Assembly: GCF_002897035.1 (NCBI RefSeq)
Contig: NZ_BAUX01000008.1
Coordinates: 124,001-188,000 of the forward strand
Source: Methylopila sp. Yamaguchi
Lineage (GTDB): Bacteria; Pseudomonadota; Alphaproteobacteria; Rhizobiales; Methylopilaceae
DNA length: 64,000 nt
Direction: 5' to 3'
Shown: piece after piece, positions 6,897-48,266 of the stretch
Layout: every line of letters begins with the position of its first letter
How positions within the stretch are numbered: position 1 is the stretch's first letter
Translations under genes and position numbers: made by a program
The notes under the pieces: model-generated
Databases searched by the model: none
Told to the model about the DNA's origin: nothing
The model's input: only the letters and a program-made list of their open reading frames with translations

Positions 6897-7958
6897 ATGC
6901 CCGCCTCCGCCCCCCGCCTCTGGGCGCTCCTCCCCAAGCATCGCGGCGACGCGCGCATGGTGGAGGCCGCGGCCGCGGCGAGCGGGCTCGACGTCGTCGT
7001 CAAGCGCCTCGTCTTCAACCCCTCGGGCTGGCTGCTCAACCTGCGCAGCCAGGGCTCTCTGTTCTCGGTGAAGGCGGCCGCTCGCGCGCAGCTGACGCCG
7101 CCCTGGCCCGATGTCGTGCTGACGGCCGGCAAGCGCTCGGTTCCCGTCGCGCTATGGATCCGCGCGGCGTCCGGCGGCCGCACGCGGCTGGCCCATTTCG
7201 GCCGTCCCTCCGCGCCGCTCGGTTGGTTCGACCTCGTGGTGACCACGCCGCAGTACGGGTTGCCGTCTCGCGCCAACGTGCTGGTCCAGCGCTTTCCGCC
7301 GACGGCTCCGCCTGAAGCGTTGCCCCCGGTTCCCCCCGATATCGTCGCCCTACCCCGCCCGCGGCTGATGGCGATCGCCGGCGGCGACGCCGACCCGCAG
7401 CGGCTCGACGCCGACGCCGCCCGCCGGTTCGCGGCGGACGCCATGGCGCGCGCGACGGCGAGCGGCGGCTCCGTGCTCGCGGCCACCTCGCCGCGCACGT
7501 CGCCGGCGGCGGTCGCCGCGCTGAAGGAGACCTTCGCGACCGCGCCGGTCCCGGCGCGCCTTGCGATCTATGGCGAGGGCGCGGACGACTACCGCGCCTT
7601 CCTGGCGGCCGCCGACGCTTTCCTCGTCACCGACGACAGCGCGTCGATGATCGCCGAGGCGGCAATGCGCGGCGCGCCGGTCGCGCTGTTTCCCCTGCCG
7701 CGGCGGCCTGGCCCGACTCTACGCGCCTACGGCGCCGTTGAGGCCGTGGCGCGCCGGACCCGGACCGGAACGCAGGCGCTGAACGCGGCGATCGGTTGGG
7801 GGCTGGTGCGAGGCAACCGCGACATCGACCTCTTCGTGCAAGCGCTGGCGAAAGACGGCCTGCTCGACGGCGGCCCGCGCGCCGCCGAGGTCGCGGCGGC
7901 CGAACTCGCCGAGGTGGGCGCCCAGGTGCGCCGCCTCGCGCACGCCGATCACGCCTGA
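6897..7958 (+). CDS. ELM1/GtrOC1 family protein (DUF1022), GT-B-like
   Basis: A 353-residue member of the family that includes plant mitochondrial fission protein ELM1 and bacterial GtrOC1-type proteins. Recognisable blocks are PKHRGDARMVEAAAAASG near the N-terminus, PWPDVVLTAGKRSVPVALW, the HFGRPSAPLGWFDLVVTTPQYGLP block, and the C-terminal AFLVTDDSASMIAEA nucleotide-sugar-like motif. The fold resembles GT-B glycosyltransferases, and bacterial members are thought to act in envelope glycan metabolism, though no reaction is established. It follows thrS by 43 bases. The next gene on the same strand starts 62 bases later, after a 7-bp hairpin (7990-8007). Confidence 0.85.
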   Translation: MPASAPRLWALLPKHRGDARMVEAAAAASGLDVVVKRLVFNPSGWLLNLRSQGSLFSVKAAARAQLTPPWPDVVLTAGKRSVPVALWIRAASGGRTRLAHFGRPSAPLGWFDLVVTTPQYGLPSRANVLVQRFPPTAPPEALPPVPPDIVALPRPRLMAIAGGDADPQRLDADAARRFAADAMARATASGGSVLAATSPRTSPAAVAALKETFATAPVPARLAIYGEGADDYRAFLAAADAFLVTDDSASMIAEAAMRGAPVALFPLPRRPGPTLRAYGAVEAVARRTRTGTQALNAAIGWGLVRGNRDIDLFVQALAKDGLLDGGPRAAEVAAAELAEVGAQVRRLAHADHA

Positions 7959-7989
7959 TCGTCATCGCAGCGTCAGGGCGGCGTCGCTG

Positions 7990-8007
7990 CCGCGTCATCC
8001 GACGCGG
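7990..8007 (+). other. Short perfect hairpin between ELM1-like gene and ATP-grasp gene
   Basis: CCGCGTC, a 4-base ATCC loop and GACGCGG form a perfect 7-bp stem 14 bases before the ATP-grasp start at 8021. There is no T-run, so it is not a normal intrinsic terminator. It could influence translation of the downstream gene or separate it from the ELM1-like gene. This is only a structural observation. Confidence 0.35.
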
Positions 8008-8020
8008 CTAGCGTCACGCC

Positions 8021-9064
8021 ATGCTGATGACGCCGAATCTCGACCCCCGATGCGCCCGCATCCCCTCGGCGGACAAGGCGCGCCTGCGCCTGATGTTCCT
8101 CGCCAAGCACGCCTGCGGCGACGGCTCGCCCGACGCCGCGGACGGCAATCACGCCGTCTACCATCACGAGCTTCGGACGACGATCGAGGGCCTTGGGATC
8201 GAGGTGGTCGCCGCGAACAGCTTCGAGGCGATCGAGCGGCGGCCGAACGTAGACTTCGTCTTTCCGCTGCTTAACCGCGCCGGCTTCCAGAACAGCGAGA
8301 TGCTGGCCCCGCTGCTGCTGACACGCTGGGGGGCGCCATTTCTCGGCGCGAGCCCGATCCTGCGCGGGCTGGCCGACGACAAGCACCTCTCGAAGGTCGT
8401 GGCTCGCCGCCACGGCGTGCCGACCGCGCGCTGGCTCCCCTGCCGCCGCGGTCGACCGTTGGCCGAGCCGGACTTCCGCGCGGAGCGGCTGGTGGTGAAG
8501 CCGAACGCCTCTTCCGCCTCGTGGGGCGTGACGATCGTCGACAGCTGGACCGAAGCGCGCGCCCACGTGCAGGAGCTGCACGGCCTCGGGCACGACGTGA
8601 TCGTCGAGGAGTGGCTGCCGCTGCTCGACGTCGCCGTGCCGGTGGTCGGCGGGGCCGGCGCCGCGCCGTGGCTGTTGCCTCCCATGGCGCACGCGCCCGA
8701 ACGCGCCGGCGACCTGCGCTCCTACGAGGAGAAGCGCGCGCTCGCCGCCGACGTCCGCCCCGACCCGCTGACGGTGGTCGACGACCCCGACCTTAGCGGA
8801 CGGCTGAACGCCTTCTGCCGCGGGCTGTGCGAGGAGCTCTGGCCCTTCGACTACGGTCGCTTCGAATTCCGCTACGATCCCGGCTCCGGGGCGATCTCCT
8901 TCATGGAGGTCAATCTCTCCTGCAACCTGTGGTCCCAGAAAAGCATCTCGCGCTCCGCCGCGTCGCTGGGGGTGGACCATGCCTCGCTAGTCGAGTCGAT
9001 CCTTGCCCACAGCCTTCGCCGGCAGGGCGTCATCGCCTCCGTCGGCCTGGAGCTTGCGGCGTGA
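8021..9064 (+). CDS. Ddl-like ATP-grasp ligase, substrate unknown
   Basis: A 347-residue ATP-grasp enzyme with the layout of D-alanine-D-alanine ligases. Landmarks: LADDKHLSKVVARRHGVPTAR (central domain entry), RLVVKPNASSASWGVTIVDS (nucleotide loop), DVIVEEWLPLLDVAVPVVGG, SYEEKR, and the metal-binding end YGRFEFRYDP...FMEVNLSCNLWSQKS. ATP-dependent amide or peptide bond formation is expected. The metal loop reads ENLSCN-like rather than the Ddl N-x-x-PGMT form, so it is unlikely to be the cell-wall Ddl; a true ddl lies at 46223-47143. The stop overlaps the next gene's GTG by 4 bases (GTGA), implying coupled translation. Confidence 0.85.
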   Translation: MLMTPNLDPRCARIPSADKARLRLMFLAKHACGDGSPDAADGNHAVYHHELRTTIEGLGIEVVAANSFEAIERRPNVDFVFPLLNRAGFQNSEMLAPLLLTRWGAPFLGASPILRGLADDKHLSKVVARRHGVPTARWLPCRRGRPLAEPDFRAERLVVKPNASSASWGVTIVDSWTEARAHVQELHGLGHDVIVEEWLPLLDVAVPVVGGAGAAPWLLPPMAHAPERAGDLRSYEEKRALAADVRPDPLTVVDDPDLSGRLNAFCRGLCEELWPFDYGRFEFRYDPGSGAISFMEVNLSCNLWSQKSISRSAASLGVDHASLVESILAHSLRRQGVIASVGLELAA

Positions 9065-9885
9065 CCGGCGCTCTCACGGTTCTGGTGCTGGCCGGCGAAC
9101 GCGACGGCCGGCTCGATCCGCTGGCGGAGGCCGCGGGCGTCGCGCTGAAGGCGCTGTCGCCGGTCGCGGGCCGACCCATGGTCGCCCATGTGCTGGACGC
9201 GCTCGCCGCCAGCCACCGGGTGGGCGAGGTGCGGATCTCGATCAACGCCGGCTCTGGGCTCGAGCGCCTGCCGGACGTTCGTTCGCTCGCGGCGTCCGGG
9301 CGTCTCATCGTGTTCAGCTCTCGCCCAAACCTCGTCGACAGCGTGCTGGACGCGTTGCACGGCGCGGCCTTTCCCGTGCTGATCGTCACCGCGGACAGCG
9401 TCCTCATCACGCCGGATCAGATCGCGGAGTTCGACATCGCGGCGCGCCGGAGCGACGCCGAGGTCGCGGTGGCGCTCGCTCGGCGCGAACAGGTGCTCGC
9501 CGCCCATCCCGACGGCCAGCGCAAGTTCTACACGTGCTCCGACGGCGCCTTCTCGAACTGCAACATGTACTGGATGGGCGAAGCCTCTGCGCTGCGGGCG
9601 GCCGAACTGTTTCGCTCCGGCGGCCAGTTCGTGAAGCATCCCATGCGCGTGGTCAGCGCGCTCGGGCTCCGCGGCATCGTCGAGCTCGTCCGGTTCCGCC
9701 TTGGCCTCAGCGCGCTCAACGCGTCGTTCAAGCGGCTTTCGAGACGGTTCGGGCTGAGGATCGTCCCGATCGAACTCAGCGACGGCGCCGCGGCGATCGA
9801 CGTCGATCACCTCCGCAGCCTGAGGGTCACCGAAGAGGTGCTTGCGTGGCGCCACGCCGAACCCCAGCGCCTCGCCGCTGAATAG
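9061..9885 (+). CDS. MobA-like NTP transferase domain protein
   Basis: A 274-residue nucleotidyltransferase of the GT-A/MobA type that would attach a nucleotide to a phosphorylated small molecule. It begins with the signature TVLVLAGERDGRLDPLAE followed by GVALKALSPVAGRPMVAHVL, and the acidic metal motif is TADSVLIT. The C-terminal IDVDHLRSLRVTEEVL resembles the end of MobA/CofC-like proteins. I chose the GTG at 9061, which overlaps the preceding TGA as GTGA; the frame is open upstream, but only as a shadow of the ATP-grasp gene. The next ATP-grasp gene starts 7 bases after its stop. The substrate is unknown. Confidence 0.82.
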   Translation: MTGALTVLVLAGERDGRLDPLAEAAGVALKALSPVAGRPMVAHVLDALAASHRVGEVRISINAGSGLERLPDVRSLAASGRLIVFSSRPNLVDSVLDALHGAAFPVLIVTADSVLITPDQIAEFDIAARRSDAEVAVALARREQVLAAHPDGQRKFYTCSDGAFSNCNMYWMGEASALRAAELFRSGGQFVKHPMRVVSALGLRGIVELVRFRLGLSALNASFKRLSRRFGLRIVPIELSDGAAAIDVDHLRSLRVTEEVLAWRHAEPQRLAAE

Positions 9886-9892
9886 CCGCGCC

Positions 9893-11047
9893 ATGCTGAC
9901 GCTGCGGACGGCCCCTCCCCGACTCTTCGGCTGGACCTCCGCAAGAAGCCGGCCTCCGACGGATCTCGTCGGGCTCTACTTCGACGCCCTGTGGCGCCAC
10001 TGGAGCCCTCAGGACCGTGCGGTCGCGCTGGCGCTGTCAGGCGCCGCCGCCCTTGGCCTCGCCGTGCGGGCGCCCTGCGCCGGCTGGCGCCACGGCTGGG
10101 ACGCCGCGGAACAGGCCCTGATCGCGCGGACCGCCGATCCGGACGCCCATCTCGCCATGGCCGTTCGCAAGGGGGTTCATCGGCTGCTCAATCCCGGCGC
10201 GTATCCGCTCGTTGCGAACCCGCTCAAAAACAAGCGGCTGTTCGCCGGCCGATGCCGCGAGGCCGCATTGCCGACGCCTGAGACCTTCGAAGGCGGACCG
10301 GACGCGCTGCACATGTGGCTCCATGGCCGGGCGGGCGTCATCGCCAAACCGAACTACGCCTCCAAGGGCGCAGGGGTGATCGGCTTCCAACGCCGCTCCG
10401 ACGGCTGGCGCAGCGGCGCCGAGCCCATCGACGAGGGTCGCGTCGTCGCCAACCTTGCGGCTGTTCTGCGGGACGGGGGCCTCGTCCAGGAGGCCTGCGC
10501 CGCCCATCCCGCGCTGCAGCCGCTGTCGCCCGGCGCGCTGCCGACGCTGCGGGTGATGACCGCGGTGAACGAGGCCGGCGAGATCGAGGCCTGCGACCGC
10601 GTCCTGCGGCTGTCGGCGGGCGGACCGCGGCCGGTCGACAACTTCAACGCCGGCAACGTCGTCGCGAGCCTCGACGCAGAGGCGCGCATCGGACGAGGCT
10701 TCCGTCGTGTGGACGGCGCAATCGTCCCCGTGGAGCGCCATCCGGCGACCGGCGTCCCCCTCGTCGGGCACGTCGCGCCGGACATCGCCGCGGCGATCGA
10801 GCTTGCGACCCACGCTCACGAGGCGTTTCGCGACGGCTTCTTCGTGATTGGCTGGGATGTGGGCCTGTCCGACCGGGGCCCGATCATGATCGAAGGCAAC
10901 TGGAATCCCGGCGTCGACGTGCTTCAGCTCGTGTCCGGCCGGGGGCTCGGCGACAGCCGCCTCGGCGCGCTCTACGCGGGCCGCCTTCGCGACCTGCCGG
11001 CCGAGACGTGGCGGCGGGCGCGCCCGATCGAGCGCGACCGCCGCTAG
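9893..11047 (+). CDS. Sugar-transfer-associated ATP-grasp protein
   Basis: A 384-residue protein resembling the sugar-transfer-associated ATP-grasp family (Pfam ATPgrasp_ST), found near polysaccharide and nucleotide-sugar genes. Visible blocks are PLKNKRLFAGRCREAALPTPET, AGVIAKPNYASKGAGVIGF (nucleotide-binding loop), LVQEACAAHPAL, ALPTLRVMTAVNE, FNAGNVVASLD, and the metal end FVIGWDVGLSDRGPIMIEGNWNPGVD. The residues before the ATP-grasp core (about 1-90) are alanine-rich and probably helical. The ATG at 9893 was chosen; the open frame begins at 9842 inside the previous gene. It ends the three-gene unit and converges on a CBS gene. Confidence 0.82.
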   Translation: MLTLRTAPPRLFGWTSARSRPPTDLVGLYFDALWRHWSPQDRAVALALSGAAALGLAVRAPCAGWRHGWDAAEQALIARTADPDAHLAMAVRKGVHRLLNPGAYPLVANPLKNKRLFAGRCREAALPTPETFEGGPDALHMWLHGRAGVIAKPNYASKGAGVIGFQRRSDGWRSGAEPIDEGRVVANLAAVLRDGGLVQEACAAHPALQPLSPGALPTLRVMTAVNEAGEIEACDRVLRLSAGGPRPVDNFNAGNVVASLDAEARIGRGFRRVDGAIVPVERHPATGVPLVGHVAPDIAAAIELATHAHEAFRDGFFVIGWDVGLSDRGPIMIEGNWNPGVDVLQLVSGRGLGDSRLGALYAGRLRDLPAETWRRARPIERDRR

Positions 11048-11065
11048 ATCCCGGCCACCGAAGCT

Positions 11066-11497
11066 TCAGGCGGTCGCGATGTAGTCGCGCATGGCCGACG
11101 CCTCGGCCTCGGCCATCGCCATGCGGTGCTTCACCACGTCGCCGATCGAGACGATGCCGACGAGCCGGCGGCCTTCCACCACGGGAACGTGGCGGAACTT
11201 GCCCTCGGTCATGCGGTCCATGATCTCTTCGATCGTCTCGTCGGCGGTCGCGGTGAAGACCTTCCGGGTCATGTGCATCGAGACGGGATCAGCCAGGACG
11301 TCGGCGCCGCGGGCTGCGAGCGACCGGACGACGTCGCGCTCGGAGATAATGCCCGAGATCCCGCCGTCGGCGCCGGCGATCACCACCGTGCCGATGCGCT
11401 TCTCCGCCAGCAGGGCGACGATTTCGGCCATCGTGCGGTGCGGCGAGGCGGTGAAGACCTCAGGCCCCTTGAACGCCAGAATGCGTGCGACCGTCAT
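11066..11497 (-). CDS. CBS domain pair protein
   Basis: A 143-residue stand-alone Bateman module. Two CBS motifs are visible: about residues 15-65 (EIVALLAEKRIGTVVIAG ... GIISERDVVRSLA) and about 78-130 (TADETIEEIMDRMTEGKFRHVPVVE ... GIVSIGDVVKHRM). Such proteins bind adenine nucleotides and act as energy or redox sensors. Their targets cannot be read from the sequence. The start ATG at 11497 has an excellent AGGAGG five bases upstream, which overrides the longer open frame to 11608. It appears to be a single-gene unit. Confidence 0.92.
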   Translation of the reverse strand: MTVARILAFKGPEVFTASPHRTMAEIVALLAEKRIGTVVIAGADGGISGIISERDVVRSLAARGADVLADPVSMHMTRKVFTATADETIEEIMDRMTEGKFRHVPVVEGRRLVGIVSIGDVVKHRMAMAEAEASAMRDYIATA

Positions 11498-11604
11498 GCG
11501 AGCCTCCTTTTGTGTTTGAGGCCGAGCAAATCCGGCCTCGTTCGCGAGGGGCCGGCGGGAGGCTCGTCGGTCCTTAAGTCGAGGCCGTCCCGCGGCCTGC
11601 TGGC

Positions 11605-12405
11605 TCAATCATGGGGGGCGGGAGGACGCGGAGGCAATGCTACGGAGGCATCAGCCCGGTCACGGAACCGTGCAACTTTCGGATCAAACAGCGGGAACAG
11701 CGCAAGCCCGGTGAGGAATCCTCCGATGTGCGCCTCCCAGGCGATGGACGCGGTTTCTCCGCTGAGCGCCATTCCGCCCAGGCCGAAGGCGATGTTGGTC
11801 CCGAACCACGCCAGAAGAAAGATCAGGACCTGGGGGTTTCGAAGCGCGGTCGCGAGAGGGACCGCAGGCGCCGAGAACGCCGGGCGGCCACGCCGCCGGA
11901 ACGCGCCGAGCGGCCCGCCGGCCTCGAACATGAAACGCATCGCCCCCGCCATCTGGCCCGAAATCGCGGCCGACGCGCCGATCACCGGCTGAGGCTCGTC
12001 GATATGAAGCGCGAGATGCGCCGCCGCGCCGCCGACCGCGCAAAGCGCTGAGAAGACCAGGAACCGCAGCGAACCGAACCGCCAGGCCACGGCGCTGCCG
12101 AAGGCCAGCATGGCGACGCTGTTGACCAGAAGGTGCGTCCAGTCGCCGTGAAGGAAGGCGTAGGTGAGGAACGTCCACACCTTGGCGCCCTCGCCGCCGA
12201 GCATGTCGGGGAGATAGGGCGAGGCCGGATCGTAGCGGGCCGGGATGAAGGCGAAGCGCAGAAGAACCGCGATGTCCGCGTCTTCCGAGAGAAAGACGCG
12301 CCAGAGATGAATCGCCGCGAACAGCGCGATGCTCGCGAGCACGACGGCGGGCGCGTTGAACGCCGGCTCCCCACGATCGACCGGACGGCTTTGGTGCTCT
12401 CTCAC
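11605..12405 (-). CDS. Rhomboid-family intramembrane serine protease
   Basis: A polytopic inner-membrane protein (266 residues from the chosen start) with the rhomboid layout: a first helix (VVLASIALFAAIHLW), loop, FLHGDWTHLLVNSVAML (HxxxH of TM2), VIGASAAISGQMAGA (catalytic Ser motif), and WEAHIGGFLTGL (catalytic His). The serine motif is GASAA instead of the usual GASGA. An internal loop of about 30 residues carries RRRGRP. The GTG at 12405 has GAGGGA six bases upstream; an in-frame ATG at 12429 has no clear ribosome binding site. It is divergent from the PAS_5 gene. Confidence 0.88.
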   Translation of the reverse strand: MREHQSRPVDRGEPAFNAPAVVLASIALFAAIHLWRVFLSEDADIAVLLRFAFIPARYDPASPYLPDMLGGEGAKVWTFLTYAFLHGDWTHLLVNSVAMLAFGSAVAWRFGSLRFLVFSALCAVGGAAAHLALHIDEPQPVIGASAAISGQMAGAMRFMFEAGGPLGAFRRRGRPAFSAPAVPLATALRNPQVLIFLLAWFGTNIAFGLGGMALSGETASIAWEAHIGGFLTGLALFPLFDPKVARFRDRADASVALPPRPPAPHD

Positions 12406-15076: not shown

Positions 15077-16876
15077 ATGACGTGCAACAACGACGAAGCC
15101 GATCGGCGAAGCGGCGCGGGCGGGCTCACGCGCCGTGAGGCGCTCCTCATGACGCTTGCGGCCGGCGTCACGGCGATCTCCATCACGCTCGCGGTCGAGG
15201 GCGCCGAGGCGGCGACCGCGCCCTTCCTGCATGGCGTCGCCAGCGGGGACCCGTTGAGCGACCGCGTCATTATCTGGACGCGCGTCACCAAGCCGGGCGC
15301 CACCGCCGACATCGCCGTCAACTGGATCGTGGCGGAAGACGAGGCCTTCACCCGCGTCGTGCGGTCGGGCAAAGCCGTCGCAAGGGTCGGCCGCGATCAC
15401 ACGGTGAAAGTCGACGTCACGCAGCTCTCGCCGGGCGTCGTTTATTACTACCGCTTCGAGGCCGAGCGCGCGCTGTCTCCGGTCGGTCGTACGAAGACCC
15501 TGCCCGTCGGCAAAGTCGATCGACTGATGCTGGCGGTGTTCTCCTGCTCGAACTACGAACTTGGGTTCTTCAACGTCTACAAGGAGGCGGCGAAGCGGAG
15601 AGACCTCGACGCCGTTCTGCATCTCGGCGACTACATCTACGAGTACGGCCCAGGGACCGGAGGTTACACCACGCCCGCGACCGGCCTCGGACTGGCGCCC
15701 AAGCCGCGCGACGCCGATCTCCAGCCGCGCGAAGAGATCATCCGGCTCGACCAGTACCGTGCGCGCCATGCGCTCTACAAGACTGATCCGCACCTGCAGA
15801 AGCTCCACGCGCTGGCGCCCTTCATCAACATCTGGGACGACCACGAGGTGGCGAACGACGCGTGGACCGGGGGCGCGGAAAATCACAACGCGGGCGAAGG
15901 TTCGTGGAGCGTCCGCAAGCAGCACGGCGTTCGCGCGTTCTATGAGTGGCTGCCAATCCGAGAGCCCGCGGACCGGGAGCGCGTCGATCCGGCGACCGGC
16001 AATCCCGACGCGCTCTACCGCACCTTCGACTTCGGCGACCTCGCCCGCCTCGTGATGATCGACACCCGCGAGGCCGCCCGCGACCAACAGCTTTCAAGCG
16101 CCGCGCTGGTCGCCGCTTATGTCGGCGCGCCGCCGGACGGCCCGTTCCCGAAAGACGTGCGCGAGGACGGCAAGCGCCGCACCCTGATGGGAGACGCGCA
16201 GGCGGCGTGGTTCGGCGAACAGATCGTCACGTCGACGCAAGCGTGGCAGCTGATCGGCAATCAGGTCCTGATGTTCTACCAGAACGCCCCTGATATCGCT
16301 GGATCTCCGGTGCTCAGCCCGGCGCAGAAGACGAGCTACAACGCCCTTCTCGACCAGCTTCTCGGCGCCGGCCAAAGCGAGCAGATCGCTCAGCTCGGCG
16401 CGGCGGGCCTGCCAACGCCGCTCGCCGCCGACGCCTGGACCGGCTATCCCACGGCCCGCGTCAAGATGCTGAAGACCCTCGCCAAAGCGAAGAGCCCGAT
16501 CGTGCTGACGGGGGACTCCCACAACGCCTGGACGGCCAACCTCGTCCTGCCTTCCGGGACAGGCTCCAGGCCCGTCGCGCCGGAGTTCGGCGGCACGTCC
16601 GTGAGTTCGCCGGGTATGGAGCAGTATCTGCTCGGCGTGCCGCCGACGGCGACCGCGGCGCTTCAGGTCGACAGCAGCGCCCGGAAATCGCCCGTCGACA
16701 AGCTGATCTACACGGAGCAAAGCCGCCGTGGTTTCATGCTGGTCGACGTTCGTCCGACATACGCCGACGTCGTCCATGTCTTCGTGTCGAACGTCTTCGG
16801 GCCGGATTACACGGTCGAGAACAAGCGCTTTCGCGTCCCGCTCGGATCGCGGCAGGCGATCCCTCTGTCCTCCTGA
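15077..16876 (+). CDS. phoD: PhoD-like alkaline phosphatase, Tat-exported
   Basis: A 599-residue phosphodiesterase/phosphatase of the PhoD family (Ca/Fe metalloenzyme releasing phosphate outside the cytoplasm). The N-terminus carries a twin-arginine signal (LTRREALLMTLAAG, cleavage near VEGAEA). Then come the Ig-like N-domain (HGVASGDPLSDRVIIWTRV) and the catalytic domain with FSCSNYELGFF, HLGDYIYEYG, NIWDDHEVANDAW and, near residue 475, VLTGDSHNAW, all metal-ligand motifs. It stands alone between a terminator upstream and the convergent nusB operon. No Pho box was recognised. Confidence 0.93.
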   Translation: MTCNNDEADRRSGAGGLTRREALLMTLAAGVTAISITLAVEGAEAATAPFLHGVASGDPLSDRVIIWTRVTKPGATADIAVNWIVAEDEAFTRVVRSGKAVARVGRDHTVKVDVTQLSPGVVYYYRFEAERALSPVGRTKTLPVGKVDRLMLAVFSCSNYELGFFNVYKEAAKRRDLDAVLHLGDYIYEYGPGTGGYTTPATGLGLAPKPRDADLQPREEIIRLDQYRARHALYKTDPHLQKLHALAPFINIWDDHEVANDAWTGGAENHNAGEGSWSVRKQHGVRAFYEWLPIREPADRERVDPATGNPDALYRTFDFGDLARLVMIDTREAARDQQLSSAALVAAYVGAPPDGPFPKDVREDGKRRTLMGDAQAAWFGEQIVTSTQAWQLIGNQVLMFYQNAPDIAGSPVLSPAQKTSYNALLDQLLGAGQSEQIAQLGAAGLPTPLAADAWTGYPTARVKMLKTLAKAKSPIVLTGDSHNAWTANLVLPSGTGSRPVAPEFGGTSVSSPGMEQYLLGVPPTATAALQVDSSARKSPVDKLIYTEQSRRGFMLVDVRPTYADVVHVFVSNVFGPDYTVENKRFRVPLGSRQAIPLSS

Positions 16877-16905
16877 GCGGAGGCGCACGCAGCGCGGGGC
16901 CTCCC

Positions 16906-16924
16906 GCGCCGCCGGCGCTTTTTC
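16906..16924 (+). terminator. Probable intrinsic terminator after phoD
   Basis: GCGCC, a GCC loop and GGCGC are followed by five T, 30 bases past the phoD stop. The stem is short and the T-run overlaps the nusB stop region, so it may also mark the convergent junction. Confidence 0.55.
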
Positions 16925-17386
16925 TCAGCCCTTCGCGAGATCTTCGGCGCGGACGTTGCGGGCGATGGCGTCGAGCACGGCGTTGACCATGCCGGCCTCG
17001 TCCCGGTCGAAGAAGGCGTGGGCGATGTCCACGTACTCGCTGATCACCACCTTGACGGGGACGTCCCTGCGCTTGCCGAGCTCGAAGGCCCCGGCGCGCA
17101 GGATCGCCCGCATGATCGCCTCGACGCGCTTCAGCGGCCAGCCGGCCTGCAGCGTCTGGTCGATCAGCGGGTCGAGCGCGCGCTGCTGCTTGAGCACGCC
17201 GCCGACGAGGTCGCGGAAGAACGCGGCCTCGGCGGGCTTGTACTCCTCGCCGTCGACCACCTTGCCAATCCAGTGGGATTCGAACTCAGCGAGCGTGTCC
17301 GGCAGCGGCGTGCCGGCGATGTCCATCTGATAGAGCGCCTGGACGGCTGCAAGCCGCGCCGCGGAGCGCTGTTCGCCCTTGGCCAT
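16925..17386 (-). CDS. nusB: Transcription antitermination factor NusB
   Basis: A 153-residue NusB, which with NusE (S10) binds boxA RNA for rRNA antitermination. The all-helical family pattern is seen in RSAARLAAVQALYQMD at the N-terminus, FFRDLVGGVL, LKRVEAIMRAILRAGAFEL and VVISEYVDIAHAFF. It is the last gene of the glyA-nrdR-ribD-ribE-ribH-nusB operon, one base after ribH. This is the standard alphaproteobacterial arrangement. Confidence 0.96.
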   Translation of the reverse strand: MAKGEQRSAARLAAVQALYQMDIAGTPLPDTLAEFESHWIGKVVDGEEYKPAEAAFFRDLVGGVLKQQRALDPLIDQTLQAGWPLKRVEAIMRAILRAGAFELGKRRDVPVKVVISEYVDIAHAFFDRDEAGMVNAVLDAIARNVRAEDLAKG

Positions 17387-40873: not shown

Positions 40874-41827
40874 TCAGTCGACCCGCGGGCCGAAGGCCGG
40901 AACGGCGCTGGCGAGCGGGGCGGCGGCGTGCCGCGGCTCGCGCTGCTCCCGGCGAACAGGCGCCTCGTCGACGATGGCGTAGGCGGCGGGATCCGCCAGC
41001 AGAGCGCCGAGCACGGCGCCGTTCAGCTTGTGGCCGCCGCAGAACGAGGCGAACCGCCCGACGAGCGGCAGGCCGGACAGCGCCAGGTCGCCCACGGCGT
41101 CGAGCGCCTTGTGCCGCACGAACTCGTCCGCGAAGCGCAGGCCCTCGGGGTTCAGCACCCGGTCGTCGCCCAGCACGACGGTGTTCTCCATTGAGGAGCC
41201 CCGGGCGAAGCCGGCCGCCCACAGCCGCTCCACGTCCTTCAGGAAGCCGAAGGTGCGCGCGGCCGCGATCTCCTCGCGGAAGACCTGCGGCGTGAGCTCG
41301 AAGCGGATCTGCTGGCGGCCGATCAGGTCGGACGCGAAATCGATGGTGACGTCCATGTGGAAGCCGGACGGCGCGGGGGCGAGCTCGGCGTAGCCGCGGC
41401 CCTGCTCGACGCGGACCGGCTTCAGGATCTTGAGCATCCGGCGCGGCGCGGAGAGCTTGCGCAAGCCGACCGCCTCGATCGCCTGCACGAAGGGGCGCGA
41501 CGAGCCGTCCACGATCGCGACCTCGGGGCCGTCGAGGCACACGCGGGCGTTGTCGACGCCAAGCGCGCGCAGGGCCGCCATCAGGTGCTCGATGGTCGAG
41601 ACGCTCGCGCCGTCGGCGTCGCCGAGCACGGTCTGGAGCTCCGTCGCCTTCAGCAGATCATGCCGGGCGGGAATCTCATGCTCGTCGCCGTCCACGGTCG
41701 TCCGGACGAAGACGATGCCCATCCCCGCGTCGCCGGGCTCCAGCGTCATGACGACCGGCGCGCCCGAATGGACGCCGACGCCGTCGACGACGGCCGTACC
41801 TGCAAGCGTGGTCTGGTGCGCAAACAT
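40874..41827 (-). CDS. lpxC: UDP-3-O-acyl-N-acetylglucosamine deacetylase
   Basis: A 317-residue zinc deacetylase, the committed step of lipid A synthesis. Motifs: HQTTLAGTAVVDGVGVHSG, the zinc ligand in STIEHLMAALRALG, VAIVDGSSRPFVQAIE, DEFVRHKALDAVGDLALSG and FCGGHKLNGAVLGALL. The C-terminus (about 35 residues) is Ala/Arg-rich and variable. It lies between ftsZ and bamD. Terminator hairpins behind ftsZ suggest lpxC has its own promoter in the 280-base gap. Confidence 0.97.
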   Translation of the reverse strand: MFAHQTTLAGTAVVDGVGVHSGAPVVMTLEPGDAGMGIVFVRTTVDGDEHEIPARHDLLKATELQTVLGDADGASVSTIEHLMAALRALGVDNARVCLDGPEVAIVDGSSRPFVQAIEAVGLRKLSAPRRMLKILKPVRVEQGRGYAELAPAPSGFHMDVTIDFASDLIGRQQIRFELTPQVFREEIAAARTFGFLKDVERLWAAGFARGSSMENTVVLGDDRVLNPEGLRFADEFVRHKALDAVGDLALSGLPLVGRFASFCGGHKLNGAVLGALLADPAAYAIVDEAPVRREQREPRHAAAPLASAVPAFGPRVD

Positions 41828-45228: not shown

Positions 45229-46256
45229 GTCGCTCCGGCCTTCTTACGCGCCTTCTCGGCGGCCTTCTCAGCCTCGGCCAGCTTTTCCGCCGCCTCGGGC
45301 GTCACCCGCACCACGGTGCGGATCGGCGATCGGAGGTCGACGATCGCAATGTCCTTGGAGAACAGATTGCGGGCGGCCTGAAGCGACTCGAGTCGGGCCA
45401 GCGCCTCGCGGAAACCCGTCTCCGGCAGCTTCACCTCGACGCCGGACCGAAGCTTGAGGTTCCAGCGCCGCTCGGCCACGAGCACGGCCGCGTAGGTCTC
45501 GGTCTTGATCTTCGGCGCGCCGTCCAGCGCTTCGAGCAGCGGCCGCGCGCGAAGGTTCGCGGAGGGGCCGACGACGAGCGGCAGATGGGCGAAGCGGGAA
45601 TCCCGGAATTCGTCGATCGGGGTGCCGTCCTCGGCGAGGATCTGCACCTTGCCGTCGTGCTGCCACAGCGCGAACGGCTTGCGCTCCACGAGATGCACGG
45701 TGACCCGGTCGGGATAGAGCTTGCGGACGGTCGCGTCCTGCACCAGCGGGTTCGCCATCAGCCGGTCGCGGGCCGCGCCGACGTCCAGGAACGGAAGCGC
45801 GGTGTTCTCGCCGATCCCGAGGGCGAGCAGGACTTCGTCGTCGGTGAGCGCGCTCTGGCCTTCGGTCGCGACGGCGATCACGCGGAAACCAGCGGCGTTG
45901 GCGACGGTGACGTGAAGGTTCTCGATTTCGGCGCGGACCGCGGGCCAATGGCCGCCGTCGATCATGCCCGTCACGCCGGTCGCGCCGAAGAAGACCGCGG
46001 TGAGCGCCACGCCGAGGCGACGCCGACGGGCGAGGCGTTCGAGGCGAAAGCGCACCGTTGTCAGACGGCTCGCGCCGATCACCTCGTCGACGTCGTCGAG
46101 GTCCGGCCGCGGCTGGCGCGCGTTCTCGCTCGCCGACCGCATGTTCGGGCCCGTCTTGAACACCCGGGTCCGGGGTGCGGCCGCTTCGCGACCGCCGCCG
46201 ACCGGCGCCCTGCGGCGTCCGTCTAGCGTTCCAAGGAGGCGTCCTCCACTAGCCAT
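45225..46256 (-). CDS. ftsQ: Cell division protein FtsQ
   Basis: A 343-residue bitopic division protein linking early and late divisome parts. After a basic cytosolic tail of about 80 residues there is one membrane helix (LGVALTAVFFGATGVTGMI), then the POTRA domain (FRVIAVATEGQSALTDDEVLLALG) and the FtsQ beta domain (YPDRVTVHLVERKPFALWQHDGKVQILAEDG). The ATG at 46256 overlaps the end of ddl by 34 bases; ATG 46142 is a shorter alternative. The C-terminus is a Lys/Ala/Glu-rich helix. Confidence 0.94.
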   Translation of the reverse strand: MASGGRLLGTLDGRRRAPVGGGREAAAPRTRVFKTGPNMRSASENARQPRPDLDDVDEVIGASRLTTVRFRLERLARRRRLGVALTAVFFGATGVTGMIDGGHWPAVRAEIENLHVTVANAAGFRVIAVATEGQSALTDDEVLLALGIGENTALPFLDVGAARDRLMANPLVQDATVRKLYPDRVTVHLVERKPFALWQHDGKVQILAEDGTPIDEFRDSRFAHLPLVVGPSANLRARPLLEALDGAPKIKTETYAAVLVAERRWNLKLRSGVEVKLPETGFREALARLESLQAARNLFSKDIAIVDLRSPIRTVVRVTPEAAEKLAEAEKAAEKARKKAGAT

Positions 46257-47143
46257 CGAACAAGCTCACCAAACCCTATGCCGGCATAAGCGGCGAGTTC
46301 CGGCACGAGCGACGTCTCCGTCATGCCGGGCTGCGTGTTCACTTCGAGGCAGACGAGCTCTCCCGTGCCGCCTTCGCGGTCGTCGAAACGGAAATCGGCC
46401 CGGCTTACTCCGCGGCACCCGAGAGCGTGGTGCGCCGCGAGAGCCAGTTTTCGGACCTCTTGGTAAACAAAGGGTGAAATTTTTGCCGGGAGGACGTGCA
46501 CCGAGCCGCCCTTGGCGTACTTGGCGTCGAAGTCGTACCAGGCGTCGCCGGGCACGATTTCGATCACCTCGAGCGCCTCGCCATTCAGCACGGCGCAGGT
46601 AAGCTCTTTTCCCGCAACGAAATTTTCCGCAAGCAGCAGCTCGCCGTGCGCCCAGTCCCCGCGGGTGAGCTCCTGCGGCGGATGGGCGTGGTCTTCGTTA
46701 ACGATTAGGACGCCGACCGACGATCCGCCGTCGACAGGCTTGAGGACGTAAGGAGGCGTTAAGACGTGCGACGCGGCGGCTTCTGACCGTGTGACGACTT
46801 TGCCACGCGGGACGGAAACCCCCGCAGCCGCCATCACGGTCTTCGCGCGCTCCTTGTGCATGGCGAGCGACGAGGCCAGCACGCCGGAGTGCGTGTAGGG
46901 GATTCCCATGATCTCCAGCAGGCCCTGCACCGTGCCATCTTCGCCGAAGCGGCCGTGCAGCGCGTTAAAGCAGACGTCCGGCTTTACCTTCGCCAGGACC
47001 TCGGCGAGATCGCGGCCGACATCGATCGGCGTGACGCGGTAGCCCTCGCCTTCCAGGGCTTTGGCGCAGGCCGCGCCCGACCAGAGCGACACCTGCCGCT
47101 CCGAGGACCAGCCCCCCATCAGGACGGCGACGTGTTTGGACAT
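46223..47143 (-). CDS. ddl: D-alanine-D-alanine ligase
   Basis: A 306-residue ATP-grasp ligase making the D-Ala-D-Ala of the cell wall. Motifs: HVAVLMGGWSSERQVSLWSG, FNALHGRFGEDGTVQGLLE, YTHSGVLASSLAMHKERAK, YVLKPVDGGSSVGVLIV, CRGVSRADFRFDD and LEVNTQPGMTETSLVPE (metal and oxyanion site). This is the cell-wall Ddl, in contrast to the Ddl-like enzyme at 8021. ATG 47143 was chosen; the frame to 47362 is open but not coding. Confidence 0.97.
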   Translation of the reverse strand: MSKHVAVLMGGWSSERQVSLWSGAACAKALEGEGYRVTPIDVGRDLAEVLAKVKPDVCFNALHGRFGEDGTVQGLLEIMGIPYTHSGVLASSLAMHKERAKTVMAAAGVSVPRGKVVTRSEAAASHVLTPPYVLKPVDGGSSVGVLIVNEDHAHPPQELTRGDWAHGELLLAENFVAGKELTCAVLNGEALEVIEIVPGDAWYDFDAKYAKGGSVHVLPAKISPFVYQEVRKLALAAHHALGCRGVSRADFRFDDREGGTGELVCLEVNTQPGMTETSLVPELAAYAGIGFGELVRWLVEDASLER

Positions 47144-47348
47144 GGTGTTTCCCCGAAGGCGGTCGTCATGCTGGACGGCCGACGGCCGATCCGATTTGTG
47201 AGCAGAATGAAGCGCGTCATGGCCCGGCTCGACCGGACCATTCCTCTCGGACGTCGAGCGTCTCGTCGGCGGCGGGCCCCCCGGCCAAGCGTAACGACGA
47301 CGCGCTTTAGGAGCGGAGGGACGCGCTCGACGGACGTGCCGGCCGTCC
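47144..47348. repeat. REP-like palindrome in the ddl-murB gap
   Basis: The 205-base gap contains GTCATGGCCCGGCTCGACC followed by GGACCATTC. ATGGCCCGG and CCGGACCAT (47219-47241) form a 9-bp stem with one mismatch around CTCGA. Short palindromes of this GTCATGGCCxGGC...GGCCATCC type are scattered widely in Rhizobiales genomes. No gene is visible in the gap. Confidence 0.55.
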
Positions 47349-48266
47349 TTACGCCGCCACACCGATCCGCTTGATCTCCCACTCGAGCTCGACGCCCGAG
47401 GTCTCCTTCACGCGCCGGCGGATCTCCTCGCCCAGGGCCTCGATGTCGGCTCCAGTGGCGCCGCCGGCGTTGATCAGGAAGTTGCAGTGCATCTCGGACA
47501 CCTGCGCGCCGCCGACCGCGAAGCCGCGCAGGCCCGCCTGATCGATCAGCTTCCACGCGGAATGGCCGGGCGGATTCTTGAACGTCGAGCCGCCGGTGCG
47601 GCTGCGGATCGGCTGGTTCCTCTCGCGGTGCTCGGCGACCGCGTCCATCTCGGCGCGGATCGCGTCCCGGTCCTGCAGCTCGCCCTCGAGCAGCGCGCCG
47701 GTGAAGATCACGTCGTCGGGCGCGTCGGAATGGCGGTAGCGGTAGCCCATCTCGGCCTTGGAAAAGGTCCGCTTCGCCCCGCTCCGGTCGACGCCGTAGA
47801 CCTCGACCACGCGGTCCGCCGTCTCCGTCCCATGGGCGCCGGCGTTCATGCGGAGCGCGCCGCCGATCGCGCCGGGAATGCCGAAGTAGAAGGCGAAACC
47901 GCCGATCCCCGCCTCCTGCGCCGCGATCGCGACGCGCTTGTCGGCCGCCGCGGCGCCCACGCGCAGTCGCCCCTCGCCCACGGCCTCGATGGCCGCGAAG
48001 GGCTTCCCGAGCCGCACGGACACGCCGGGAAGACCGCCGTCGCGGACCAGGAGGTTCGAGCCCAGCCCGATCGGCGTCAGCGGCGCGTCGGCGGGAAGGT
48101 TCGCAAGGAAATAGGCGAGGTCGTCCTCGTCGGCCGGCGTGAACAGCGCCTCGGCCGGGCCGCCGACCCGGAACCAGACGAGGTCCGCCAGCGGCTGGCC
48201 GGCGAGCAGCCGCCCGCGCAAGGCCGGCATGACGGCGGCGAGGCGTTCGACGAGCGGGGCCGTCAT
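47349..48266 (-). CDS. murB: UDP-N-acetylenolpyruvoylglucosamine reductase
   Basis: A 305-residue FAD enzyme that reduces the enolpyruvyl group to give UDP-MurNAc. Motifs: [29 protein letters not shown] (FAD), [49 protein letters not shown] (catalytic Ser) and [18 protein letters not shown]. The ATG at 48266 overlaps the murC stop (ATGA). Confidence 0.97.

Follow-up and report, generated by a model that had tools for sequence, protein, structure and literature searches.

What is made by three closely packed genes at positions 8,021 to 11,047 of the DNA analysed here, and do they form a unit at all? The stretch, hereafter the window, comprises 64,000 nucleotides of contig NZ_BAUX01000008.1 of Methylopila sp. 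Yamaguchi, and the three genes encode a Ddl-like ATP-grasp ligase (gene 1), a GT-A nucleotidyltransferase (gene 2), and a second ATP-grasp ligase of the ATPgrasp_ST type (gene 3); an ELM1-family glycosyltransferase gene lies upstream. The original prediction, made from the sequence alone, was that they build a nucleotide-activated, amino-acid- or peptide-decorated sugar or small molecule, perhaps for the envelope. We find that the cassette is a real conserved operon, distributed more widely than its order, and that the kinship of its members leads to sphingolipid synthesis, a lead absent from that prediction. As a system it belongs to no fundamentally new kind: known types of enzyme are combined in a new way, and the combination fits plausibly into a field that is still open. 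Tentatively, we favour a reading of the cassette as a biosynthetic unit for a modified headgroup of an envelope glycolipid, most likely a sphingolipid.

Distribution and integrity of the cassette

A scan of genome contigs with eight gene 1 orthologues yielded 35 named loci: six from the window's genus (Methylopila capsulata, M. turkensis, Chenggangzhangella methanolivorans, Chelatococcus sambhunathii, Hansschlegelia zhihuaiae, and a Methylopila metagenome-assembled genome, MAG), 26 titled Sphingomonadales (Sphingobium, Sphingomonas, Erythrobacter, Sphingosinicella, and MAGs), and three from other MAGs. The full trio, originally predicted to be a conserved unit, is present in 27 of them. Gene 2 comes after gene 1 in 34 (L179 has no gene 2, and L152 is frameshifted), at a spacing of -4 to +11 in the other intact loci. 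The contig ends first in L156 and L177, and no gene 3 was found next to its partners in L165, L170, L178, L179, L180, and L182. In L177, a Sphingomonadales MAG, a single open frame spans genes 1 and 2 and continues to the end of the contig (6080-7723), possibly a ligase-nucleotidyltransferase fusion or the result of a lost stop codon.

Because that search was seeded with gene 1, the fair count comes from 398 unselected genomes of the phylum, in which a carrier was defined by gene 1 at an identity of at least 45%. Ten genomes qualify, two from the window's genus and eight from four other families of the class; two weaker relatives (G539, 33%; G535, 28%), both without a ceramide-type gene, were not counted. 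Gene 2 neighbours gene 1 in seven of the ten carriers (G000, which is the window's own genome, G005, G510, G583, G625, G685, and G745), with about 1.6 kb and one open reading frame (ORF) lacking a Pfam match between the two in G510, and a cassette-clade copy of gene 2 lies elsewhere in the genome in G709 and G705. Gene 3 neighbours gene 1 in four (G000, G005, G625, and G709) and has a 31-36% match elsewhere in two, so that the full trio is adjacent in three, in the order 3-1-2 in G625. The expectation that the three genes would regularly be neighbours thus holds clearly in the gene 1-seeded loci; in the unselected sample it holds only for genes 1 and 2. From these arrangements, genes 1 and 2 appear to be the core, and gene 3 a usual member in the window's genus and Sphingobium, not a universal one. 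One sampled locus (L147, in G685) has two cassette-clade nucleotidyltransferase matches that flank gene 1 on the opposite strand (8607-9467 and 10776-11606), the second with one internal TAG.

Within the Hyphomicrobiales, the order to which the original prediction had looked for conservation, only eight of 397 sampled genomes hold close relatives of gene 1, all of a single genus, and the scope set by that prediction was too narrow in view of the many Sphingomonadales loci. Five further genomes of the order have gene 1 relatives at 30-32% identity; these were rejected as cassettes, since a search of 19-kb stretches with the query set found no partners, only two weak stray matches.

Thirteen genomes, the window's own included, group in its genus, and eight of them carry the trio. 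The other five have only the second nucleotidyltransferase, which belongs to the sphingolipid clade described below (the clusters of three of the five were opened). In one of the eight carriers (G008, 88% complete), genes 2 and 3 are frameshifted, likely through an assembly error. In G007, 4,028 bp between two CTC triplets are missing from flanks that are 91-96% identical to the window, and there remain 24 nt of the 5' end of the ELM1 gene, which has lost its ATG start codon, and roughly 100 nt from the end of gene 3. These remnants and the matching flanks indicate a single loss of all four genes rather than ancestral absence.

On re-reading of the sequence, the predicted coordinates, the common strand, the 4-base overlap of genes 1 and 2, and the 7-base gap before gene 3 proved exact (Table 1); the GTG start of gene 2 is in frame with the listed ORF from 8827, and the ATG of gene 3 with the ORF from 9842. 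All four window genes are undegraded, so that a degraded paralogue, which would have undone the prediction, is found in none of them. Ratios of nonsynonymous to synonymous substitution (dN/dS) of 0.10-0.36 across the four genes, for the window against M. capsulata and M. turkensis, place them under purifying selection. Together with the conserved active sites described below, these values put the cassette far beyond chance.

Table 1. Features of the cassette, in positions of the window.
Feature	Position	Strand	Description
ELM1 / KdoT-type GT-B glycosyltransferase	6897..7958	+	353 aa; Pfam Mito_fiss_Elm1; lineage-specific companion
ATP-grasp ligase 1 (gene 1)	ATG 8021..TGA 9064	+	347 aa; Ddl-like, substrate pocket altered
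GTGA shared by gene 1 stop and gene 2 start	9061..9064	+	sequence
GT-A nucleotidyltransferase (gene 2)	GTG 9061..TAG 9885	+	274 aa; NTP_transf_3; sister of CC_1153-type clade
ATP-grasp ligase 2 (gene 3)	ATG 9893..TAG 11047	+	384 aa; ATPgrasp_ST, RimK-like fold
Stretch deleted in relative G007	6918..10948	none	CTC triplets 6918-6920 and 10946-10948 as borders

Among the NCBIfam models listed, none reaches its cut-off for any of the four proteins. A role in anti-phage defence was rejected, PADLOC returning no family for any of the four at E 0.1, as was carriage by phages or plasmids: no viral contig that passed the pattern match encodes a gene 1 relative, and the plasmid loci opened hold sphingolipid-type clusters. 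No description of such a cassette was found in the open-licence PMC literature, by title or start of abstract among the matches listed.

Kinship of gene 2 and ELM1 with sphingolipid-cluster proteins

Gene 2 belongs to the MobA-like nucleotidyltransferases (Pfam NTP_transf_3, 40.5 bits against a cut-off of 27), and its active-site residues are invariant in 25/25 aligned rows. A tree of 65 nucleotidyltransferases divides into a cassette clade and a sphingolipid-cluster clade (split 100/99). Gene 2 falls outside the latter, CC_1153-type clade and in its sister; it is 41% identical to a CC_1153-type protein over 262 columns, and Arg14, Lys30, Asp112, Asp247, and Asp249 are kept in 33/33 rows of the cassette clade and 20/20 of the sphingolipid-cluster enzymes. 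CC_1153 is part of the ceramide (di)phosphoglycerate pathway of Caulobacter crescentus, together with CpgA-D and LptF2/G2 (PMC11324152, PMC12275187), and is needed for ceramide diphosphoglycerate, its reaction being left open by the authors in the excerpts of PMC11324152 used here. The sphingolipid-cluster enzyme was equated with CC_1153, whose neighbours are CC_1152 (CpgD) and CC_1154 (ceramide synthase), by gene order as given in parts of these papers (PMC11324152, PMC12275187, PMC13228409) and not from the Caulobacter sequence. A Roseomonas gene at the equivalent cluster position, used as a stand-in for CpgD, aligns with gene 2 over only 69 columns (E 8e-5), which is no full-length relationship.

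Sphingolipid-type clusters house the closest relatives of gene 2 outside the cassette, both on plasmids of Roseomonas, Pseudomonas, and Diaphorobacter and in other families of the order. Plasmid matches comprise 16 records, all below 60% identity, and the four neighbourhoods opened are sphingolipid-type clusters, not cassettes. Of seven out-of-genus loci of the order (L045-L051), six have genes of the PCYT, LptF/G, and CDP-alcohol-transferase types, joined in sufficiently long stretches by ceramide-synthase-type and ceramide-kinase-type genes; the seventh, L049, shows only a ceramide-synthase-type gene and a weak ABC match. Six weaker matches (E 7e-5 to 7e-4) were read only as short loci. Large synthesis and transport clusters of this type lie on plasmids NZ_CP073662.1, NZ_CP065408.1, and NZ_CP061095.1, one of them typed as conjugative. 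A DUF2141 gene is found inside the Roseomonas clusters (L033, 3471-4061; L036, 2636-3037); in L141, some 5 kb separate genes 1 and 2 from a DUF2141-like ORF (16483-17007).

A second line of kinship runs through the ELM1 gene (Pfam Mito_fiss_Elm1, 136.3 bits against a cut-off of 27), which adjoins the trio in all eight cassette genomes of the window's genus, on the same strand in six and divergently in two. It stays with the trio both beside a threonyl-tRNA-synthetase-like (thrS-like) gene (window, G010, and G005) and elsewhere (the other five). The eight cassette ELM1 proteins and the sphingolipid-region ELM1 of six genus genomes form one clade (97/98), within which the tree leaves the order unsettled, and an ELM1 gene lies 12.7-21.2 kb from the sphingolipid nucleotidyltransferase in 12 of the 13 genus genomes. 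KdoT of Acinetobacter baumannii, an ELM1-like CMP-Kdo transferase with a predicted GT-B fold, carries an SRRT motif whose second Arg is functionally needed, according to the portion of PMC12856342 consulted. All eight cassette ELM1 proteins have SPRT instead (residue 198 in the window), in which the first Arg is replaced and the second kept. SPRT is common to the cassette ELM1 and its clade-mate type, and SRRT is present in the single copy checked of the other sphingolipid-region type.

In the window's own genome, the sphingolipid-region ELM1 is beside flippase-type and fatty acyl-AMP ligase genes, and two different ELM1-family genes occur near genes of these types (G000:C21:4302-5444 and 6900-7967). 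An ELM1/GtrOC1 gene is also found in the sphingolipid-type plasmid cluster of Pseudomonas sp. JS425. It may be that ELM1 takes part in bacterial sphingolipid synthesis and has been overlooked there.

The companion changes with lineage. The 29 named out-of-genus loci, read over up to 10 kb on either side, gave no ELM1 match; there, the start of a GT4-type gene coincides with the stop of gene 3 or precedes it by a few bases in 19 of the 20 trios with downstream sequence (its identity Pfam-tested on three of the 19), the exception being Sphingomonas oleivorans. Conversely, neither the window nor any of the six named loci from its genus gave a GT4 match, and ELM1 stands on the other side. In the phylum sample, G625 has a GT4 relative beside the trio, divergently oriented, and the stretches read in the other seven out-of-genus carriers have none. 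That two unrelated glycosyltransferases have joined one trio supports a sugar-transferring fourth member; the GT-B fourth member foreseen in the prediction is thus regular, drawn from two families according to lineage.

The sampled genomes that carry gene 1 also carry sphingolipid genes. A ceramide-synthase-type gene is present in 10/10 carriers of the phylum sample and 33/388 other genomes (Fisher p ~8e-11, a value that ignores ancestry). A second, diverged gene of this type (35-37% to the query) lies in G000 (C9:63041-64165) and G005 (C1:1330835-1331956), on a contig other than that of the sphingolipid cluster.

Candidate chemistry and rival products

Both ligases retain what an ATP-grasp enzyme is expected to need, as the original prediction held for all three genes. 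Gene 1 is a weak member of the Ddl-like group (Pfam Dala_Dala_lig_C, 31.9 bits against a cut-off of 24) in which Arg280, Glu282, Glu296, and Asn298, corresponding to the catalytic Arg, Asp/Glu, Glu, and Asn of Ddl, are invariant in 19/19 aligned rows. The substrate loop of Ddl, PGMTxxS, is visible in the aligned chain 3r23 and aligns with CNLWSQK in gene 1, with the Ddl Ser replaced by Lys307, likewise invariant in 19/19. Gene 1 was rejected as the housekeeping Ddl: it scores far below the Ddl cut-offs (TIGR01205, 55 against 245.65 bits; PRK01372, 53.1 against 243), and the genome's true Ddl (394.6 bits against 243), to which it is 24% identical over 234 columns, lies at 46223-47362 of the window. 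Gene 3 matches ATPgrasp_ST (PF14397) over residues 109-353 with 106.8 bits against a cut-off of 31.4. Its Lys152, Asp322, Glu334, and Asn336, presumably the metal- and ATP-binding residues from what is generally known of the fold, are invariant in 21/21 rows. The predicted model of gene 3 (pLDDT 85.9) is closest to RimK (5zct_A; Z 16.0 over 229 residues, rmsd 4.3), and the protein scores 29.8 bits against the 314.2 required by the RimK-related NCBIfam model TIGR02291.

The AlphaFold model of gene 2 (pLDDT 89.7), of good quality like that of gene 3, has its best structural match in the hypothetical protein TTHA0179 (2dpw; Z 25.1 over 228 residues, rmsd 2.1), followed by GlmU, IspD, and CMP-Kdo synthetases, so that structural matching does not discriminate among substrates; the absence of CofC among the best 50 structural matches is uninformative either way. 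From knowledge of the families, gene 2 likely makes a nucleotide-linked compound, and genes 1 and 3 likely generate acyl phosphates and couple these to a nucleophile, in most cases an amine. We infer that gene 2 would activate a phospho-acid, for example phosphoglycerate, that an amino acid would supply the amine, and that the pathway would yield a sphingolipid headgroup completed by the glycosyltransferase. In a first step, gene 2 would couple a small phosphorylated acid or a sugar phosphate to a nucleotide with release of pyrophosphate; the candidates to consider first are a phosphoglycerate-like acid and CTP, because the sister clade of gene 2 sits in the ceramide-phosphoglycerate-type cluster. 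Both ATP-grasp enzymes would then activate a carboxylate as an acyl phosphate and ligate it to an amine, the RimK-like gene 3 probably adding an amino acid and the Ddl-like gene 1 acting with a rebuilt acceptor pocket. Finally, the GT-B glycosyltransferase, of the ELM1/KdoT type here and GT4 in sphingomonads, would transfer a sugar during headgroup assembly. The order of these steps and the lipid target are both conjectural. The envelope role proposed in the original prediction is the one we favour. The kin of gene 2 and ELM1 belong to sphingolipid clusters, the sampled carriers have sphingolipid genes, and most carriers tested outside the genus lack LpxC.

Several observations weigh against a sphingolipid product. 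The cassette is inside a sphingolipid cluster in none of the loci read. Its co-occurrence with ceramide-synthase-type genes is confounded by ancestry, the carriers belonging to few families that are rich in sphingolipid genes (in family f56, 18 genomes have a ceramide-type gene and five of them gene 1); the window's genus, one of few cluster bearers in its order, is for this reason the more independent evidence. One sampled carrier, G660, yielded only a sphingolipid-side nucleotidyltransferase and none of the cassette clade, and nothing clearly recognizable as a sphingolipid or cassette gene surrounds the five distant Hyphomicrobiales relatives of gene 1. Four of the ten sampled carriers yielded no gene 3, which, with the lack of ELM1 in the named loci outside the genus, implies that the chemistry is not identical everywhere. 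ATP-grasp enzymes are not always amide makers. Seven Sphingobium loci have a downstream ManC-type gene (put to a Pfam test in L159), and in Sphingomonas oleivorans gene 3 is followed by a polysaccharide flippase, both of which fit a polysaccharide; LpxC, present in all seven genus genomes tested, means that lipopolysaccharide could be the target there.

A polysaccharide product, although unlikely, is the alternative that survives best. Gene 2 would make a nucleotide sugar, the ATP-grasp enzymes would add amino acids to a uronic acid, and the glycosyltransferase would build the repeat unit of a capsule or exopolysaccharide. The GT4 gene that overlaps gene 3 in nearly all out-of-genus trios would suit such a pathway, as would the ManC-type and flippase genes, a GDP-mannose-dehydratase-like gene read by eye in five loci, and the Pfam name of the gene 3 family ('sugar-transfer associated'). 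However, clustering of the 35 loci revealed no polymerase or export gene common to both lineages, the cassette has as its neighbours in the window the thrS-like gene and one of CBS-domain-like type, each recognized by eye, and the kin of two cassette genes are sphingolipid-cluster proteins.

That same kinship, and the glycosyltransferase companions of both lineages of named loci, speak against a soluble small molecule unrelated to lipids, such as a peptide-like metabolite or a cofactor tail made in the manner of F420 by CofC, CofD, and CofE, and the clustering found no transporter or regulator shared by the two lineages. We consider this explanation quite improbable, even though the combination of a nucleotidyltransferase with ligases is reminiscent of the F420 arrangement, 3-phospho-D-glycerate is a compound that CofC can activate (3PG-F420; excerpt of PMC8764529), gene 1 keeps gene 2 nearby more often than gene 3 in the unselected sample (7/10 and 4/10), and a GT4 relative accompanies only one of the eight out-of-genus carriers sampled.

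Modification of the lipopolysaccharide core, with ELM1 as a Kdo-type transferase, a CMP-sugar from gene 2, and amino acids from the ATP-grasp enzymes, has very little chance of being the general answer: the gene 2 model does match CMP-Kdo synthetases and the window's genus does have LpxC, but none of the 29 named loci outside the genus yielded an ELM1, and LpxC is absent from 19 of the 20 carriers tested there, so that lipid A is an unlikely target in most of them. The 20 comprise eight phylum-sample genomes, among them G625, the only one with LpxC, and 12 hand-picked from the 29 named loci; completeness is given for eight of the 20, at 100% each. The window's own genome has two LpxC genes, one at 40874-41827 of the window on the minus strand (324 bits), beside a cell-division cluster, and one at G000:C6:104401-105219 (229 bits); G005 and G010 likewise have two, and the four other genus relatives tested have one.

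Returning to the sphingolipid reading, a fuller version of it can be stated, which we regard as doubtful. The cassette would make a new class of bacterial sphingolipids with one or more amide-linked amino acids on the headgroup, through a nucleotide-activated phospho-acid, the nucleotidyltransferase, two ATP-grasp enzymes, and a glycosyltransferase. It would have arisen from the ceramide-phosphoglycerate toolkit by divergence of the nucleotidyltransferase, and in the Methylopila group by sharing of ELM1, and would be common to sphingomonads that lack LpxC and the methylotrophic Methylopila. If true, an amino-acid-bearing sphingolipid would enlarge the range of headgroup classes and show ATP-grasp ligases at work in the making of sphingolipids. 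The headgroup chemistry of bacterial sphingolipids is only now being elucidated, and a conserved operon in cultured genera (Sphingobium, Erythrobacter, and Methylopila), with a nucleotidyltransferase sister to the CC_1153 type, offers a direct handle on it. In Caulobacter, an anionic sphingolipid supports survival without lipopolysaccharide, as reported in the part of PMC12275187 consulted.

Comparison with known systems

Each enzyme of the cassette resembles a characterized one and departs from it. Gene 1 shares the ATP-grasp fold and catalytic residues of Ddl but neither its PGMTxxS loop nor the curated score. RimK, LysX, and ArgX are the closest solved folds to the gene 3 model, yet the identity is only 17% and the TIGR02291 cut-off is not reached. 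In KdoT, labelled ELM1-like in the excerpt of PMC12856342, the motif is SRRT; the cassette ELM1 keeps the needed second Arg of an SxRT pattern but reads SPRT, and it lies outside any lipooligosaccharide locus. CpgD is a CTP:phosphoglycerate cytidylyltransferase with Arg16, Lys26, and Asp112 in its active site (PMC12275187 and PMC13228409, each in part), and gene 2 has an Arg/Lys/Asp trio at similar positions (Arg14, Lys30, Asp112; compared by position, unaligned). By gene order, however, CpgD matches the 'phosphocholine cytidylyltransferase' type of the clusters, whereas gene 2 is related to the CC_1153 type.

At the level of the pathway, the F420 route through CofC, CofD, and CofE may serve as a working analogy, since there, too, nucleotidyl activation of a phospho-acid is followed by ligation of an amino acid to the carboxylate. 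The resemblance is one of analogy and not of kinship; unlike the cassette ligases, the F420 ligase CofE is not known to be an ATP-grasp enzyme. Kinship leads instead to the ceramide-phosphoglycerate cluster of Caulobacter. The main text of PMC11324152 does not contain the term 'ATP-grasp' (0 occurrences), cassette and clusters of this type occupy different places in the genome, and the two nucleotidyltransferases form separate clades. Those clades are nonetheless sisters, and where such clusters occur in the window's genus they include an ELM1 closely akin to that of the cassette.

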